DNA from: an uncultured Cocleimonas sp.
GTDB taxonomy: Bacteria; Pseudomonadota; Gammaproteobacteria; Thiotrichales; Thiotrichaceae
Direction of reading: 5' to 3'
DNA length: 64,000 bases
Assembly: GCF_947495625.1 (NCBI RefSeq)
Contig: NZ_CANLZW010000007.1
Coordinates: forward strand, 62,001 to 126,000
Position 1 is the first letter of the stretch. Each line of letters begins with the position of its first letter. Below are positions 3,884 to 22,955 of this stretch, one piece after another. The notes under the pieces are model-generated. The model was not told the DNA's origin and did no database searches. It saw nothing but the letters and a program-made list of their open reading frames with translations. Position numbers and translations under genes: made by a program.

Positions 3884-3911
3884 AAAAAACAGCTAAAAGT
3901 AGGGGGGTGTC
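3884..3911 (+). repeat. dispersed G6 repeat, copy 1
   Basis: A-run, then AGCTAAAAGTAGGGGGGTGTC, here one base longer than the core motif allows to be quoted in a single run elsewhere. G-rich strand on plus. It lies between DUF502 and the HAD gene and ends 32 bases before the HAD start codon. Confidence 0.85.
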
Positions 3912-18374: not shown

Positions 18375-19115
18375 GTGTCAGAAAGAAAAAGAATCGCGCT
18401 GCTTATCGATTGCGATAATGTAAGCCACAACTCGATAGAAGGTGTTTTAGAAGAACTTGCAAAATACGGCATGGTAAATGTTCGTCATGCGCATGGTGAC
18501 TGGAATAACTCATCGTTGTCTGGCTGGATTAATCGATTACACCCAAACGCGATAAGGCCGATGCAGCAATTTGCGTATACCAAAGGCAAAAACGCGACCG
18601 ACTCTGCGATGATTATCGACGCAATGGATTTACTCTACAGTGGCAGTATTGATGCGTTTGCCTTGATGACCAGCGATAGTGATTTCACGCCACTGGTTCT
18701 TCGAATTCTTGAGAGTGGATTACCTGTTTATGGCTTTGGTGAAAAGAAAACGCCGCAGCCATTTGTTGATGCATGTTCGCCATTTATCTTCACAGAAAAT
18801 TTAGCGCAAGAAGAAAAAGAGAAAACAGGTAGCACAGATAATACATCCACTAAGAAAGCGAAGAAAAGTAAAGCTGAACTTAGACGTGATAACGCACTGG
18901 TGAAGTTATTAAGGACGGCAGTTGAGCAGTCATCAGAAGATGACGGTTGGGCGCACATGAGCCATGTCGGACACTATATTTCCAATAACAGCTCTTTCTC
19001 ATCCATAAACTATGGCTACAGAAAGCTGGGTGATTTGATTAGAGCCAGCGAGTTATTTGATATAGAAATGAGAAATGACGGCTCGGTTATGTACATAAAA
19101 GATGCGCGTAAATAA
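18375..19115 (+). CDS. NYN-domain nuclease with OST-HTH/LOTUS domain
   Basis: In this 246-residue protein, residues 5-145 form a NYN/PIN-like nuclease domain with acidic metal-binding residues in LLIDCDN (Asp12, Asp14), KGKNATDSAMIIDAMDLL and LMTSDSDFTPLV. A lysine-rich linker (about 150-165) leads to a C-terminal OST-HTH/LOTUS winged helix (about 170-240) expected to bind RNA or G-quadruplex. The start is GTG at 18375 with AGGAG 8 bases before it. The amidotransferase begins 7 bases after the stop, so the two probably form an operon. RNA substrate and role are unknown. Confidence 0.9.
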   Translation: MSERKRIALLIDCDNVSHNSIEGVLEELAKYGMVNVRHAHGDWNNSSLSGWINRLHPNAIRPMQQFAYTKGKNATDSAMIIDAMDLLYSGSIDAFALMTSDSDFTPLVLRILESGLPVYGFGEKKTPQPFVDACSPFIFTENLAQEEKEKTGSTDNTSTKKAKKSKAELRRDNALVKLLRTAVEQSSEDDGWAHMSHVGHYISNNSSFSSINYGYRKLGDLIRASELFDIEMRNDGSVMYIKDARK

Positions 19116-20017: not shown

Positions 20018-20185
20018 TTTTATACTTAAATTTGATCCATCTATCCTAAAATTGTGTGCTTTTCCTGTAAATCACCTACAAATAATTGACAGACAATAAA
20101 AATTAGCGCAAAGTCCCCGCCACTTTTAACACACAAGCTTTTGAAAATTATCATTTAGCTTACTAAACAAATACTGGAGATACAC

Positions 20186-20218
20186 ATGTTCAATCAAAAT
20201 CAGAAATTTATCGACTAA
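20186..20218 (+). CDS. 10-residue putative leader peptide upstream of rtcB
   Basis: ATG-initiated frame MFNQNQKFID, then TAA. A strong site (GGAGA, 20176-20180) lies 5 bases upstream. The stop is two bases before the first strand of a series of alternative helices, the usual placement for a translation-sensing leader. There is no run of one regulatory codon (three Asn/Gln pairs only), so what ribosomes would sense is unclear. Confidence 0.45.
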   Translation: MFNQNQKFID

Positions 20219-20219
20219 T

Positions 20220-20337
20220 CTCCCATGCAATTGCTGGGAGCTTGGTTTAAAAAATAACTAAGCGTCACCCAGCCAATGTATACGATTTCTGTATGAACAT
20301 TGAAACCCTGAGTGACGCGAGTCCTCAGGGTTTTTTT
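20220..20337 (+). promoter_or_regulatory. attenuator-like structured leader or small RNA ahead of rtcB
   Basis: Four pairings can be drawn: CTCCCA (20220-20225) with TGGGAG (20235-20240); GCTGGG (20233-20238) with CCCAGC (20268-20273); GCGTCAC (20262-20268) with GTGACGC (20312-20318), enclosing CAATGTATAC/GTATgaACATTG; and the terminator at 20303-20333. The first two exclude each other, and the third excludes the terminator's upper stem. This is the arrangement of an attenuator. The alternative is a stand-alone structured RNA ending at the terminator. A possible -35 TTGACA lies at 20086-20091 with only a poor -10. Confidence 0.5.
20303..20337 (+). terminator. intrinsic terminator in the rtcB leader
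   Basis: AAACCCTGAG (20303-20312) pairs with CTCAGGGTTT (20324-20333). The upper stem GAC/GTC closes a GCGA (GNRA) loop after a one-base bulge, and a run of T to 20337 follows. It lies 41 bases before the rtcB start codon. Confidence 0.85.
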
Positions 20338-20378
20338 ATGCCTGCGAGGAATTGAGAAATAAAACTAGGTACAGAAAA

Positions 20379-21575
20379 ATGCCAATTCAAAAAACATTAA
20401 ACAAAGGCAAAGTTCCCGTAAAAATATTTACCAATGATGTTGATAGTGCATCGATGACGCAGTTGACGAATATATCCCAACTGCCATTTATCCATCATCA
20501 CATTGCAGCTATGCCTGATGTGCATGTCGGCAAAGGCGCTACTGTGGGTTCGGTGATTCCGAGCAAAGACGCAATCATCCCCGCCGCAGTTGGCGTGGAT
20601 ATTGGTTGCGGCATGAATGCGGTGCGAATTTCGTTAAAAGCACATGATTTACCCGATACCTTGAGACGCTCACGAAGAGCGATTGAAGATCAAGTACCTG
20701 TCGGTTTTGATATGCATAAACGCGAAGCGATTAACGCTTCAACGTGGAACTCGATGGAAAGACCATTGAAAGCCATAACGGACAAACACCCCGGATTAAC
20801 AAAAATGGTGCGAAATTTTCACCATACATGGGGTCGTCAGTTAGGAACTTTAGGTGGTGGTAATCACTTTATCGAATTGTGTATTGATGAGAACGATGAT
20901 GTCTGGATCATGCTGCACTCAGGTAGCCGTGGAATTGGAAACGCAATCGGTCGCTATTTTATTAATTTAGCAAAAAAAGATATGGGAAAACAGTTGGGTC
21001 ATTTGCCTGATAAAGAACTCGCCTATTTCACCGATGGCGCACAACATTTTGATGACTATGTTGAAGCAGTAGGCTGGGCGCAAGATTACGCGATGGTTAA
21101 TAGACGCGAAATGATGCGTTTGACGATCAAGGCCTTGCAAGCTGAATTGCCACCGTTTATTGCAACCAAAGAAGCGATCAACTGCCATCACAATTATGTG
21201 CAGAAAGAAATGCATTACGGCGAAAACGTGTTTATCACGCGCAAAGGTGCAATTCGAGCAGGTGTGGATGACTTAGGTATTATCCCCGGAAGTATGGGAG
21301 CGAAATCCTATATCGTTCGTGGTAAAGGCTCTAAAGCATCGTTTTGCTCGTGTGCACACGGAGCAGGTCGAAAAATGAGTCGGACAAAGGCTAAACGTCA
21401 ATTTAACCGATTCGATTTAGCAGCACTGACCGAAGGTGTTGAATGCCGTAAAGATAAAGGCGTCGTGGACGAAATTCCATCGGCCTATAAAGATATCGAT
21501 ACGGTAATGAAAAATCAGCACGATTTGGTTGAAGTGGTGCATACCTTAAAGCAAGTGCTTTGCGTAAAGGGGTAA
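20379..21575 (+). CDS. rtcB: RNA-splicing ligase RtcB
   Basis: The 398-residue RtcB has the conserved motifs MPDVHVGKGATVG, VGVDIGCGMNAV (Mn2+ ligand Cys), LGGGNHFIEL, HSGSRGIGN and AHGAGRKMSR, whose His is the GMP-attached catalytic residue. RtcB joins 2',3'-cyclic-phosphate or 3'-phosphate RNA ends to 5'-OH ends with GTP, repairing RNAs cut by endonucleases. ATG 20379 is chosen because the protein family begins near MPIQ; an upstream in-frame TTG at 20352 is unlikely. No RtcR, RtcA or archease gene is adjacent. The gene is preceded by an attenuator-like leader and followed by a reverse dispersed repeat. Confidence 0.95.
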   Translation: MPIQKTLNKGKVPVKIFTNDVDSASMTQLTNISQLPFIHHHIAAMPDVHVGKGATVGSVIPSKDAIIPAAVGVDIGCGMNAVRISLKAHDLPDTLRRSRRAIEDQVPVGFDMHKREAINASTWNSMERPLKAITDKHPGLTKMVRNFHHTWGRQLGTLGGGNHFIELCIDENDDVWIMLHSGSRGIGNAIGRYFINLAKKDMGKQLGHLPDKELAYFTDGAQHFDDYVEAVGWAQDYAMVNRREMMRLTIKALQAELPPFIATKEAINCHHNYVQKEMHYGENVFITRKGAIRAGVDDLGIIPGSMGAKSYIVRGKGSKASFCSCAHGAGRKMSRTKAKRQFNRFDLAALTEGVECRKDKGVVDEIPSAYKDIDTVMKNQHDLVEVVHTLKQVLCVKG

Positions 21576-21788: not shown

Positions 21789-22721
21789 ATGGAATTACAT
21801 GAAGTAGAAGAAATTATAAGTTGTTTAGCGGGTGATAGAACCAAGTTTTATTACTTTCGTGATCGCTATGCGTTAATGCTATTAACAGATTACATCACTG
21901 AAAAAGTAGGCGAAAAGCCAATCTCAGTGGCAGAGTTAAAGCGTTCGTGCTTCGCAAATCTGCTTAACAAAACACCCGTTAAAAAGGCGCTGGCACAATC
22001 TGGTAACGGATACATTACGGCCAAAGATCTAGAGATGATTTGGGATGAAAATCCATTAGCATTTGTAGTAACGCTGGGTCAGTGGGGTTCTGGTAAAAAG
22101 GAATGGCGCTGGAAGCAAATGAGCAGAAGTGGATACCACTTAGTGCTACAGCTGAATATGGCGACTGATCATACACAACAGTTACAAAAGCTAATCCGCC
22201 CTGAAGATGCACACACCTTTAATTATTGGGGACATCCGTCTTTAACAAAAGGTGATCGCGGAACCTTGGCATGGGTACGTTTGGATCTAGACTTTGAAAC
22301 CGATGAGGTATTGATTGAAGAGATTCAATGCGATTGGATTCGAAAAGTGAGATCTGCTGTTAAGTACGATTACAGCTGGTACGGAGATTATAGTAAAGCT
22401 GAATTGGAAGCTTACGCTAACGATGTATTAGAGCCGTATGCAAAGATTTGGCAAGAAGCCATGTTAGCTGCGACGATTGATTTCGTGCGCAATGAACTAG
22501 GCATCAAACAAGTCTACTATCACAGCTTTGAGAATGGCGCGCGACTTAAAAATATCGGGCATAGCAAACCGCCACGTTCTTTATATACCCAGCTACCAAA
22601 ACAGTTTGGGTTTAAGAAAAGCTGGTACGCACCGGAGTTTTTGATGCGTGAGAAGAAGATTAAATATTTTCAAGAACGAGTGGAAGAACCTTGTTGGTTC
22701 AGGCTTCCAGTGAGTTCATAA
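21789..22721 (+). CDS. uncharacterised 310-aa protein downstream of rtcB
   Basis: A soluble protein with no signal or membrane segment. It has a helical N-terminal region (ELHEVEEIISCLAGDRTKFY), then a mixed alpha/beta core rich in Trp and Tyr (TLGQWGSGKKEWRWKQMSRS; IEEIQCDWIRKVRSAVKYDY; KQVYYHSFENGARLKN). QWGSGKKEW resembles a Walker A only superficially. I do not recognise the family. Start ATG 21789 is preferred (GGGAAG 8 bases upstream); an in-frame TTG at 21771 is unlikely. Position between rtcB and a small basic ribosome-factor-like gene suggests a role in RNA metabolism, by context only. Confidence 0.7.
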   Translation: MELHEVEEIISCLAGDRTKFYYFRDRYALMLLTDYITEKVGEKPISVAELKRSCFANLLNKTPVKKALAQSGNGYITAKDLEMIWDENPLAFVVTLGQWGSGKKEWRWKQMSRSGYHLVLQLNMATDHTQQLQKLIRPEDAHTFNYWGHPSLTKGDRGTLAWVRLDLDFETDEVLIEEIQCDWIRKVRSAVKYDYSWYGDYSKAELEAYANDVLEPYAKIWQEAMLAATIDFVRNELGIKQVYYHSFENGARLKNIGHSKPPRSLYTQLPKQFGFKKSWYAPEFLMREKKIKYFQERVEEPCWFRLPVSS

Positions 22722-22760: not shown

Positions 22761-22955
22761 ATGCCTAAGGTAAATAAAGTGCATAAAAAACGTAACCCTG
22801 TAGCCCTGTCTGCAATTCTGCGTAAGGGCGGGGTACATGAGAAAAGTCGTAAAGCAAAACGACAGAAACAGAAAAGTGAGTTACGCAAAACTGTTTCAAA
22901 AGCAATGGCCACATATCGTGGCCATTCTTTTGTCTGGGTTTTATCTATTTATTAG
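22761..22955 (+). CDS. small basic protein, possible ArfA-like ribosome-rescue factor
   Basis: The 64-residue protein is very Lys/Arg-rich (MPKVNKVHKKRNPVALSAIL, then RKGGVHEKSRKAKRQKQK). A strong site (AAGGAG, about 22747-22752) precedes the ATG. A hairpin with a T-rich tail lies inside the frame at 22904-22926, before the stop, so a terminated transcript would lack a stop codon. That layout is known from arfA, whose product frees stalled ribosomes when tmRNA fails. The basic K/R-N-P-x-A pattern is reminiscent of such factors, but the sequence is not a clear ArfA. An alternative is an ordinary small RNA- or ribosome-binding protein whose 3' end is structured. Confidence 0.45.
   Translation: MPKVNKVHKKRNPVALSAILRKGGVHEKSRKAKRQKQKSELRKTVSKAMATYRGHSFVWVLSIY
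22904..22930 (+). terminator. intrinsic-terminator-like hairpin inside the small basic ORF
   Basis: AATGGCCAC (22904-22912) pairs with GTGGCCATT (22918-22926) over a 5-base loop, followed by CTTTT. It lies 27 bases upstream of the ORF's TAG. The U-run is short, so termination strength is uncertain. Confidence 0.55.

Follow-up and report, generated by a model that had tools for sequence, protein, structure and literature searches.

A predicted ribosome-sensing transcription attenuator upstream of rtcB in an uncultured Cocleimonas and other gammaproteobacteria

The leader that precedes the RNA ligase gene rtcB in the window (the whole 64,000 nucleotide stretch of Cocleimonas sp. DNA analysed here) probably acts on an RNA-repair operon as a ribosome-mediated transcription attenuator that reports stalled early elongation. 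This reading is built on sequence, conservation, covariation and predicted folding under ribosome masks, from which we infer that the leader ORF is translated and that transcription terminates or reads through at the leader in the cell, as well as the trigger and a physiological link to RNA damage. Comparative evidence argues strongly that the leader is a real, conserved attenuator of the RtcB operon, and what appears to be a ribosome-sensing leader scheme is shared by many gammaproteobacteria. Should this reading be correct, the ribosome would serve as the damage sensor, with stalling on broken RNA lifting termination of the repair operon in bacteria without RtcR, and the leader would provide a simple reporter for the natural RNA damage that RtcB repairs.

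Architecture and predicted folding of the leader

A candidate sigma70 promoter, recognised from sequence as TTGACA, 17 nt and a weak -10 element CAAAGT, lies at positions 20086..20114 of the + strand, and a second candidate (TTAACA-17-TATCAT) at 20126-20154; a TTGAC box is present upstream of the leader in many relatives. The initial annotation had described a short ORF encoding MFNQNQKFID with a good ribosome site, and its placement was correct. The ORF comprises 10 codons and a stop (20186..20218, + strand) and reads ATG TTC AAT CAA AAT CAG AAA TTT ATC GAC TAA, with TAA at 20216-20218. Its counterparts, present in all relatives, are frame-specific and 9-16 codons long. The Shine-Dalgarno (SD) sequence of the ORF, GGAGAU (GGAGAT in the DNA; 20176..20181, + strand), is the first of six strands and the complement of the second.

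The remaining strands, all on the + strand, form a chain in which partners can be exchanged. Strand 2, AUCUCCCA (20218..20225), starts within the stop codon and can pair with strand 1 or 3, while strand 3, GCUGGGAG (20233..20240), can pair with strand 2 or 4. Strand 4, GCGUCACCCAGC (20262..20273), has strand 3 as partner in the terminated state and strand 5 in the antiterminator. Strand 5 (20303..20318), of which CUGAGUGACGC pairs with strand 4, is the 5' arm of an intrinsic terminator (20303..20337) formed with strand 6. The terminator reads AAACCCTGAG-T-GAC-GCGA-GTC-CTCAGGGTTTTTTT, with GCGA as the tetraloop, and carries a U7 tract. Two further hairpins interrupt the chain, namely a species-specific insert between strands 3 and 4 (GCUUGGUU/AACUAAGC, 20240..20263, + strand) and a variable hairpin enclosed by the antiterminator (20274..20302, + strand). 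The alternative helices are 1:2 (GGAGAU/AUCUCC), 2:3 (CUCCCA/UGGGAG), 3:4 (GCUGGG/CCCAGC), the antiterminator 4:5 (GCGUCAC-CAG/CUG-GUGACGC) and the terminator 5:6. With 41 bases between the terminator end at 20337 and the rtcB ATG at 20379, the chain of alternative helices ending in a GNRA-loop terminator at that distance, as proposed earlier, was confirmed, the loop being GCGA. The hairpin at 20303-20337 was not reported by an automated terminator scan of the window, presumably owing to the loop/bulge rule of that scan. The 7-bp helix GCGUCAC/GUGACGC had been likened to a tRNA acceptor stem; the helix is real but the acceptor reading did not hold, since the helix corresponds to the antiterminator and its 3' strand overlaps the terminator 5' arm.

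The leader thus combines a short ORF and ribosome-binding site with a conserved, mutually exclusive antiterminator and intrinsic terminator, the features by which ribosome-mediated attenuators are recognised. In the proposed mechanism, RNA polymerase would make strand 1 with the SD, followed by the 10-codon ORF and strands 2 to 6. On finishing the ORF, a ribosome would halt at the stop codon overlapping strand 2 and hide that strand, whereupon 3:4 would pair, strand 5 would remain free, 5:6 would form and transcription would stop before rtcB (OFF). Were the ribosome instead held up at the start or first codons, strand 2 would stay exposed, allowing 2:3 to form and strand 4 to be released. The 4:5 helix would then capture the terminator 5' arm, and transcription would continue into rtcB, a gene for a 310-aa protein and a small basic gene (ON). 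Modelling predicts that ribosome position chooses between antiterminator and terminator in the cell.

The leader is far more stable than dinucleotide-shuffled sequences (z -4.9, 0/200 shuffles, for 20165-20345; z -4.9 also for 20256-20340). For the window alone, helices 4:5 (p<0.0005) and 5:6 (p=0.0015) lie beyond chance, with 1:2 and 2:3 (p about 0.03) and 3:4 (p=0.09) weaker; all helices appear to gain support from sequence comparison. Before strand 6 exists, the antiterminator state of the window leader is favoured at -40.1 vs -30.9 kcal/mol, and once strand 6 is present the terminator state is best at -51.1 vs -42.6 kcal/mol.

The influence of a ribosome was modelled on 18 leaders truncated after strand 5, before terminator closure, by forcing the ribosome footprint to be single-stranded; the resulting values represent equilibrium folding of partial transcripts and not kinetics. 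Averaged over the 18 leaders, naked RNA gave P(3:4) 0.78 and P(4:5) 0.19, a ribosome at the start or codon 3 gave P(4:5) 0.75 and P(3:4) 0.22, and a ribosome with the stop codon in its A site gave P(3:4) 0.94 and P(4:5) 0.06. The window leader yielded P(4:5) of 0.75 when naked, 0.75 with a ribosome at the start and 0.00 with one at the stop. Untranslated RNA is therefore predicted to antiterminate in the window (P 0.75) and to terminate in most relatives. Three of the aligned leaders (L011, L030 and L032) showed no clear switch at the start and one (L014) was unresponsive at the stop. An alignment-free measure of arm sequestration differed between start and stop by 0.18 vs 0.02 in shuffles (37 leaders), and by 0.03 in the window, where the two states are hardly separated; the separation by this measure is modest because the terminator arm finds other partners. 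Taken together, the mask folding and the energies imply that transcription should end once translation is completed and should continue past the terminator when a ribosome is held early.

The same strands might instead sense initiation, an explanation that we consider rather unlikely. Strand 2, situated after the stop codon, would mimic the 16S anti-SD and compete with ribosomes for the leader SD; if ribosomes with an intact 16S 3' end were lost, the balance between 1:2 and 2:3 would shift and set rtcB expression. RtcB re-ligates 16S 3' ends after MazF. The SD GGAG is complementary to a post-stop CUCC in nearly all leaders, with up to 11 pairs, and CCUCC lies right after the stop codon in two loci (L084 and L088). 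However, strand 2 is also needed for 2:3, hence CUCC would be kept in any case, and the predicted termination of naked RNA in most leaders has the wrong sign for a sensor of initiation, although the window leader has the right one.

Conservation and covariation

Conservation of the leader, read here as an attenuator responding to stalled elongation, was assessed in 63 Thiotrichaceae genomes (Leucothrix, Cocleimonas, Thiothrix and Thiolinea), where RtcB orthologues of no less than 71% identity occur in 33 places and were matched to leader hits by coordinates. Each of the 33 full-length rtcB orthologues of the family is preceded by the leader, and 38 of the 63 genomes contain a covariance-model match. 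Family genomes without an orthologous rtcB likewise lack the leader, with the exceptions of G007, where it stands before the 310-aa partner gene, and G062, where it stands before the small basic gene. Wherever the contig permits checking, rtcB or one of its operon partners shares the leader's locus in cis. An order-level search returned the same set as the family search, and the covariance model at class level found just two leaders outside the family, one in front of the 310-aa gene once more (G251), the other a weaker match (G362). The class-level model finds few leaders because the strands drift too far for it, and inspection of upstream regions reveals more. The leader is missing at some rtcB orthologues, including those of Thiodiazotropha, Methylomonas and others.

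The divergent leaders share little strand sequence with the window, yet the order of their parts is identical: GGAG or GGAGG, an ORF of 9-16 codons, a complementary strand at or near the stop codon, a hairpin, a strand pairing with the terminator 5' arm and then the terminator. Their hosts, in other orders, include Acinetobacter baumannii (leader peptide MPTLQGKTQ), Marinicella sediminis (MQQTEKTIQ), a Competibacteraceae MAG (MNSSNTHPS), Thioploca and Parabeggiatoa MAGs (relatives of Beggiatoa) and a Kangiellaceae MAG. For 19 divergent leaders outside the model, the 4:5 duplex is steadier than in dinucleotide-shuffled leaders (Fisher p 3e-12). The 1:2 duplex gave p 1e-5 in divergent leaders, a result of less weight because the search for some of them had relied in part on 1:2.

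Aligning related rtcB leaders had been suggested as a check at the outset, and covariation was found for both exclusive structures. In an alignment of 18 sequences, examined with 500 shuffles and slid-partner controls, 94.8% of cells were paired for 2:3+4:5, with 23 double-change cells (shuffle mean 8.4), and 96.6% for 3:4+5:6, with 35 double-change cells (shuffle mean 10.6). None of the 500 shuffles reached the observed value by either measure for either structure, and sliding the partner by one column reduced pairing to 43-64%. At one position of the chain, strands 2-3-4-5-6 read A-U-A-U-A in the clade of the window and G-C-G-C-G in Thiothrix-like leaders. Helix 1:2 varies little, and its extension covaries only weakly (p=0.017). 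Since kinship inflates double-change counts in the alignment, the divergent leaders constitute the stronger evidence.

The ORF is conserved as an element and not as a peptide. Of 26 distinct covariance-model hits, 24 have an SD-preceded start that remains open to a stop at the first position of the model; the other two frames of the same hits yield 1 and 0. The peptide is free of conservation, and the ORF, the position of its stop codon beside strand 2 and the pairing scheme are kept. A fixed length of 10 codons, suggested by the first relatives, was rejected, as lengths range from 9 to 16. The ORFs are A-rich and G-poor. No enrichment over nucleotide shuffles was found in the leader ORFs for codons of known anticodon-nuclease targets, and the leader as a collection of such targets was rejected (NAY, Arg and Lys codons 81, 25 and 30 vs 76, 20 and 38 in shuffles). 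Nor were codons enriched for an amino acid of the operon, as in an amino-acid attenuator; the peptides vary and the operon is one of RNA repair. Leader peptides contain few acidic residues (6 of 363 codons in frame vs 29 of 328 in frame +2). Since the ORF roughly matches one ribosome footprint in length, position rather than sequence would be read. The simplest reading is a position sensor, rather than a sensor of peptide or amino acid, and a general detector of stalled elongation would fit better than a detector of one amino acid. The proposal that the state of translation switches rtcB gains support from comparison and computation, through the covariation and the frame-specific ORF; RNA damage may be what triggers the switch.

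Alternative helices would by themselves be enough for a switch, and a leader independent of translation could be envisaged, in which binding of a ligand, of RtcB itself or of a broken tRNA shifts the helices as in a riboswitch, the ORF being incidental. We regard this as very unlikely, given that an ORF with an SD and a stop codon at strand 2 is conserved despite its variable peptide, and that the strand sequences drift completely between orders while their pairing persists. Furthermore, outside the helix strands the alignments reveal no conserved core resembling an aptamer, and a search of the leader against Rfam, including tRNA-like and Y-RNA-like families, returned nothing at the gathering score.

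In Thiothrix-like loci (e.g. L018-L028) the rtcB ATG directly follows the terminator U-tract (GGGGTTTTTTTATG), and the terminator 3' arm may therefore double as, and hide, the rtcB ribosome site. The alternative offered by the initial annotation, a stand-alone and perhaps tRNA-like small RNA ending at 20337 and followed by an independent rtcB promoter, is scarcely credible: in the OFF state the terminated leader RNA would build up, and a weak promoter-like site lies at 20352-20380, between the terminator and the rtcB start, but ARAGORN found no tRNA in the leader, Rfam gave no match, the leader keeps its place in cis, and the abutting ATG of the Thiothrix-like loci leaves no room for a promoter.

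Genes of the operon

The rtcB gene (20379..21575, + strand; Pfam PF01139, E 1e-128) encodes the sole RtcB of the genome. It is followed by an uncharacterised 310-aa gene (21789..22721, + strand), a frequent partner of attenuator-type rtcB, and by a conserved partner of 64 codons, the small basic gene RNPVALSAILRKGGVHEKSRKAKRQ (22761..22955, + strand). The 310-aa family adjoins orthologous rtcB in 18 of 80 related loci and the small gene family in about 30. If the attenuator reading holds, two orphan partner genes are flagged, one resembling a rescue factor.

No Pfam or NCBIfam match was obtained for the 310-aa gene. Its AlphaFold model (pLDDT 86) had no confident relative in a fold search (Foldseek best E 0.14), and the best VIA Z of 9.2, to GNAT folds, is only a hint of a weak GNAT-like core in the model. 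This orphan family is tied to attenuator-type rtcB in several orders (window, L104-L117).

The small basic family shares the motif RNPVAxAAIxRKGGVHxKSxKAKRQ (window; L134, L143, L150, L152, L155, L160, L182, L184). A terminator-like hairpin followed by UCUUUU lies inside the gene, 5' of its stop codon (22902..22931, + strand), and a hairpin of this kind occurs within the ORF in about ten of two dozen relatives, compared with <1% in shuffles. In ArfA and BrfA, an internal terminator makes a non-stop message (PMC8012679). The gene at 22761-22955 is like those of ArfA and BrfA in its predicted terminator within the ORF, the likeness being one of hairpin and position only. Comparison of the family with ArfA and BrfA at the sequence level gave no Pfam or NCBIfam match and no ArfA or BrfA chain in the PDB at E up to 10. 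The small basic gene is hence put forward as a candidate for an unrecognised ribosome-rescue factor.

A tentative extension, which we would not rate above a possibility, is that of a translation-integrity operon, in which one generic stall sensor (SD, anti-SD mimic and terminator) would jointly control the RNA ligase, the orphan protein and a rescue factor made from non-stop mRNA. If true, RtcB repair and ribosome rescue would form a single RtcR-independent response to broken RNA across many gammaproteobacteria.

Two features of the neighbourhood were also recorded. An NYN-domain protein with an OST-HTH/LOTUS domain, a possible RNA-linked neighbour, is encoded at 18375-19115, two genes upstream of rtcB. 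The short repeat AGTAGGGGGGTG is REP-like and present in 16 copies in the window, e.g. at 3898, 4722, 4763, 8248, 20004, 36240 and 51896, vs 0.06 expected; a similar repeat surrounds the operon of a relative (L003).

Comparison with known systems

In enterobacteria, rtcB is controlled by sigma54 and RtcR and by Y-RNA-like elements, and the control of rtcBA by RtcR and sigma54 is a response to RNA damage. No RtcR was found in the genome of the window, and the interval from the upstream gene to rtcB contains no sigma54-like site. With a single RtcB and no RtcR in the genome, the known sigma54/RtcR control does not apply, and the leader would represent a different scheme, as had been proposed. 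Two relatives (L123 in G007 and L125 in G009) possess, beside the attenuator in the same genome, a second rtcB that is canonical and preceded by a textbook sigma54 site, TTGGCACAGCCATTGC; both modes of control therefore exist in one family.

The leader resembles those of trp, his, ilv and thr in its leader ORF, its exclusive antiterminator and terminator and its putative use of ribosome position as the signal. Unlike them, it has no run of regulatory codons and controls RNA repair, and its His_leader score of 19.4 vs 49 bits is far below threshold. Drug-inducible leaders of the erm/cat type also have a short ORF in which a stalled ribosome rearranges helices, and stalling by the nascent peptide is needed; they depend on that peptide, whereas in leaders of the window type the peptide is free to vary.

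In the open-licence literature on rtcB with a leader peptide, attenuation or ribosome stalling, no rtcB attenuator was found besides that of armZ. The armZ gene of P. aeruginosa (PA5471, RtcB-like and next to prfH) has a 13-codon leader ORF, PA5471.1; in the published model completed translation leads to termination (OFF) and a stalled ribosome switches the gene ON. Ribosome-targeting drugs and loss of Cca induce armZ, which is turned on by tRNA without CCA (PMC12057347, PMC13041342, PMC3516279). An RtcB-family gene and a short leader ORF, in armZ about 200-250 bp upstream, are common to armZ and the window. The armZ product belongs to subfamily TIGR03073, found with prfH; the window rtcB scores 149 bits vs a TIGR03073 cut-off of 271.8, and no prfH is present among the genes downstream of its leader.

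The layout of RtcB2 leaders was judged from three Pseudomonas species other than P. aeruginosa (RtcB2-prfH leaders MQQLITLCRTCLV, MKYLIALCRTCLV and MQALITLCRSRLA), plus Proteus and E. coli. In these leaders, codons of a conserved LCR-like segment of the ORF pair with a downstream GUCUGCC/CGUCCUGCC strand, codons GCAGGACG, GCGGACA or GCAGAC being matched by downstream CGUCCUGC, UGUCCGC or GUCUGC. Pairing of LCR-like codons with a downstream CUGCC strand is present in L118, L214-L217 and L219 and missing in the window leader. A leader ORF is found in the RtcB2-prfH operons L118, L214-L217, L219, L099 and L103, from E. coli, Proteus, Pseudomonas and other hosts, most of which pair LCR-like codons with compensatory changes. 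No U-tract terminator like that of the window was seen in the Pseudomonas, Proteus and E. coli RtcB2 leaders. The window leader differs from the RtcB2 type in having no conserved peptide, an SD with a post-stop strand, a five-helix chain and an intrinsic terminator. As the RtcB2 relatives pair coding sequence with a downstream strand and precede prfH, the window leader is a separate variant; judged through these relatives of armZ from outside P. aeruginosa, it would work like the armZ leader yet differs in layout. If the attenuator reading holds, such control, of which armZ is the single case, would extend to a second RtcB subfamily and across many orders, with Acinetobacter baumannii among the hosts.
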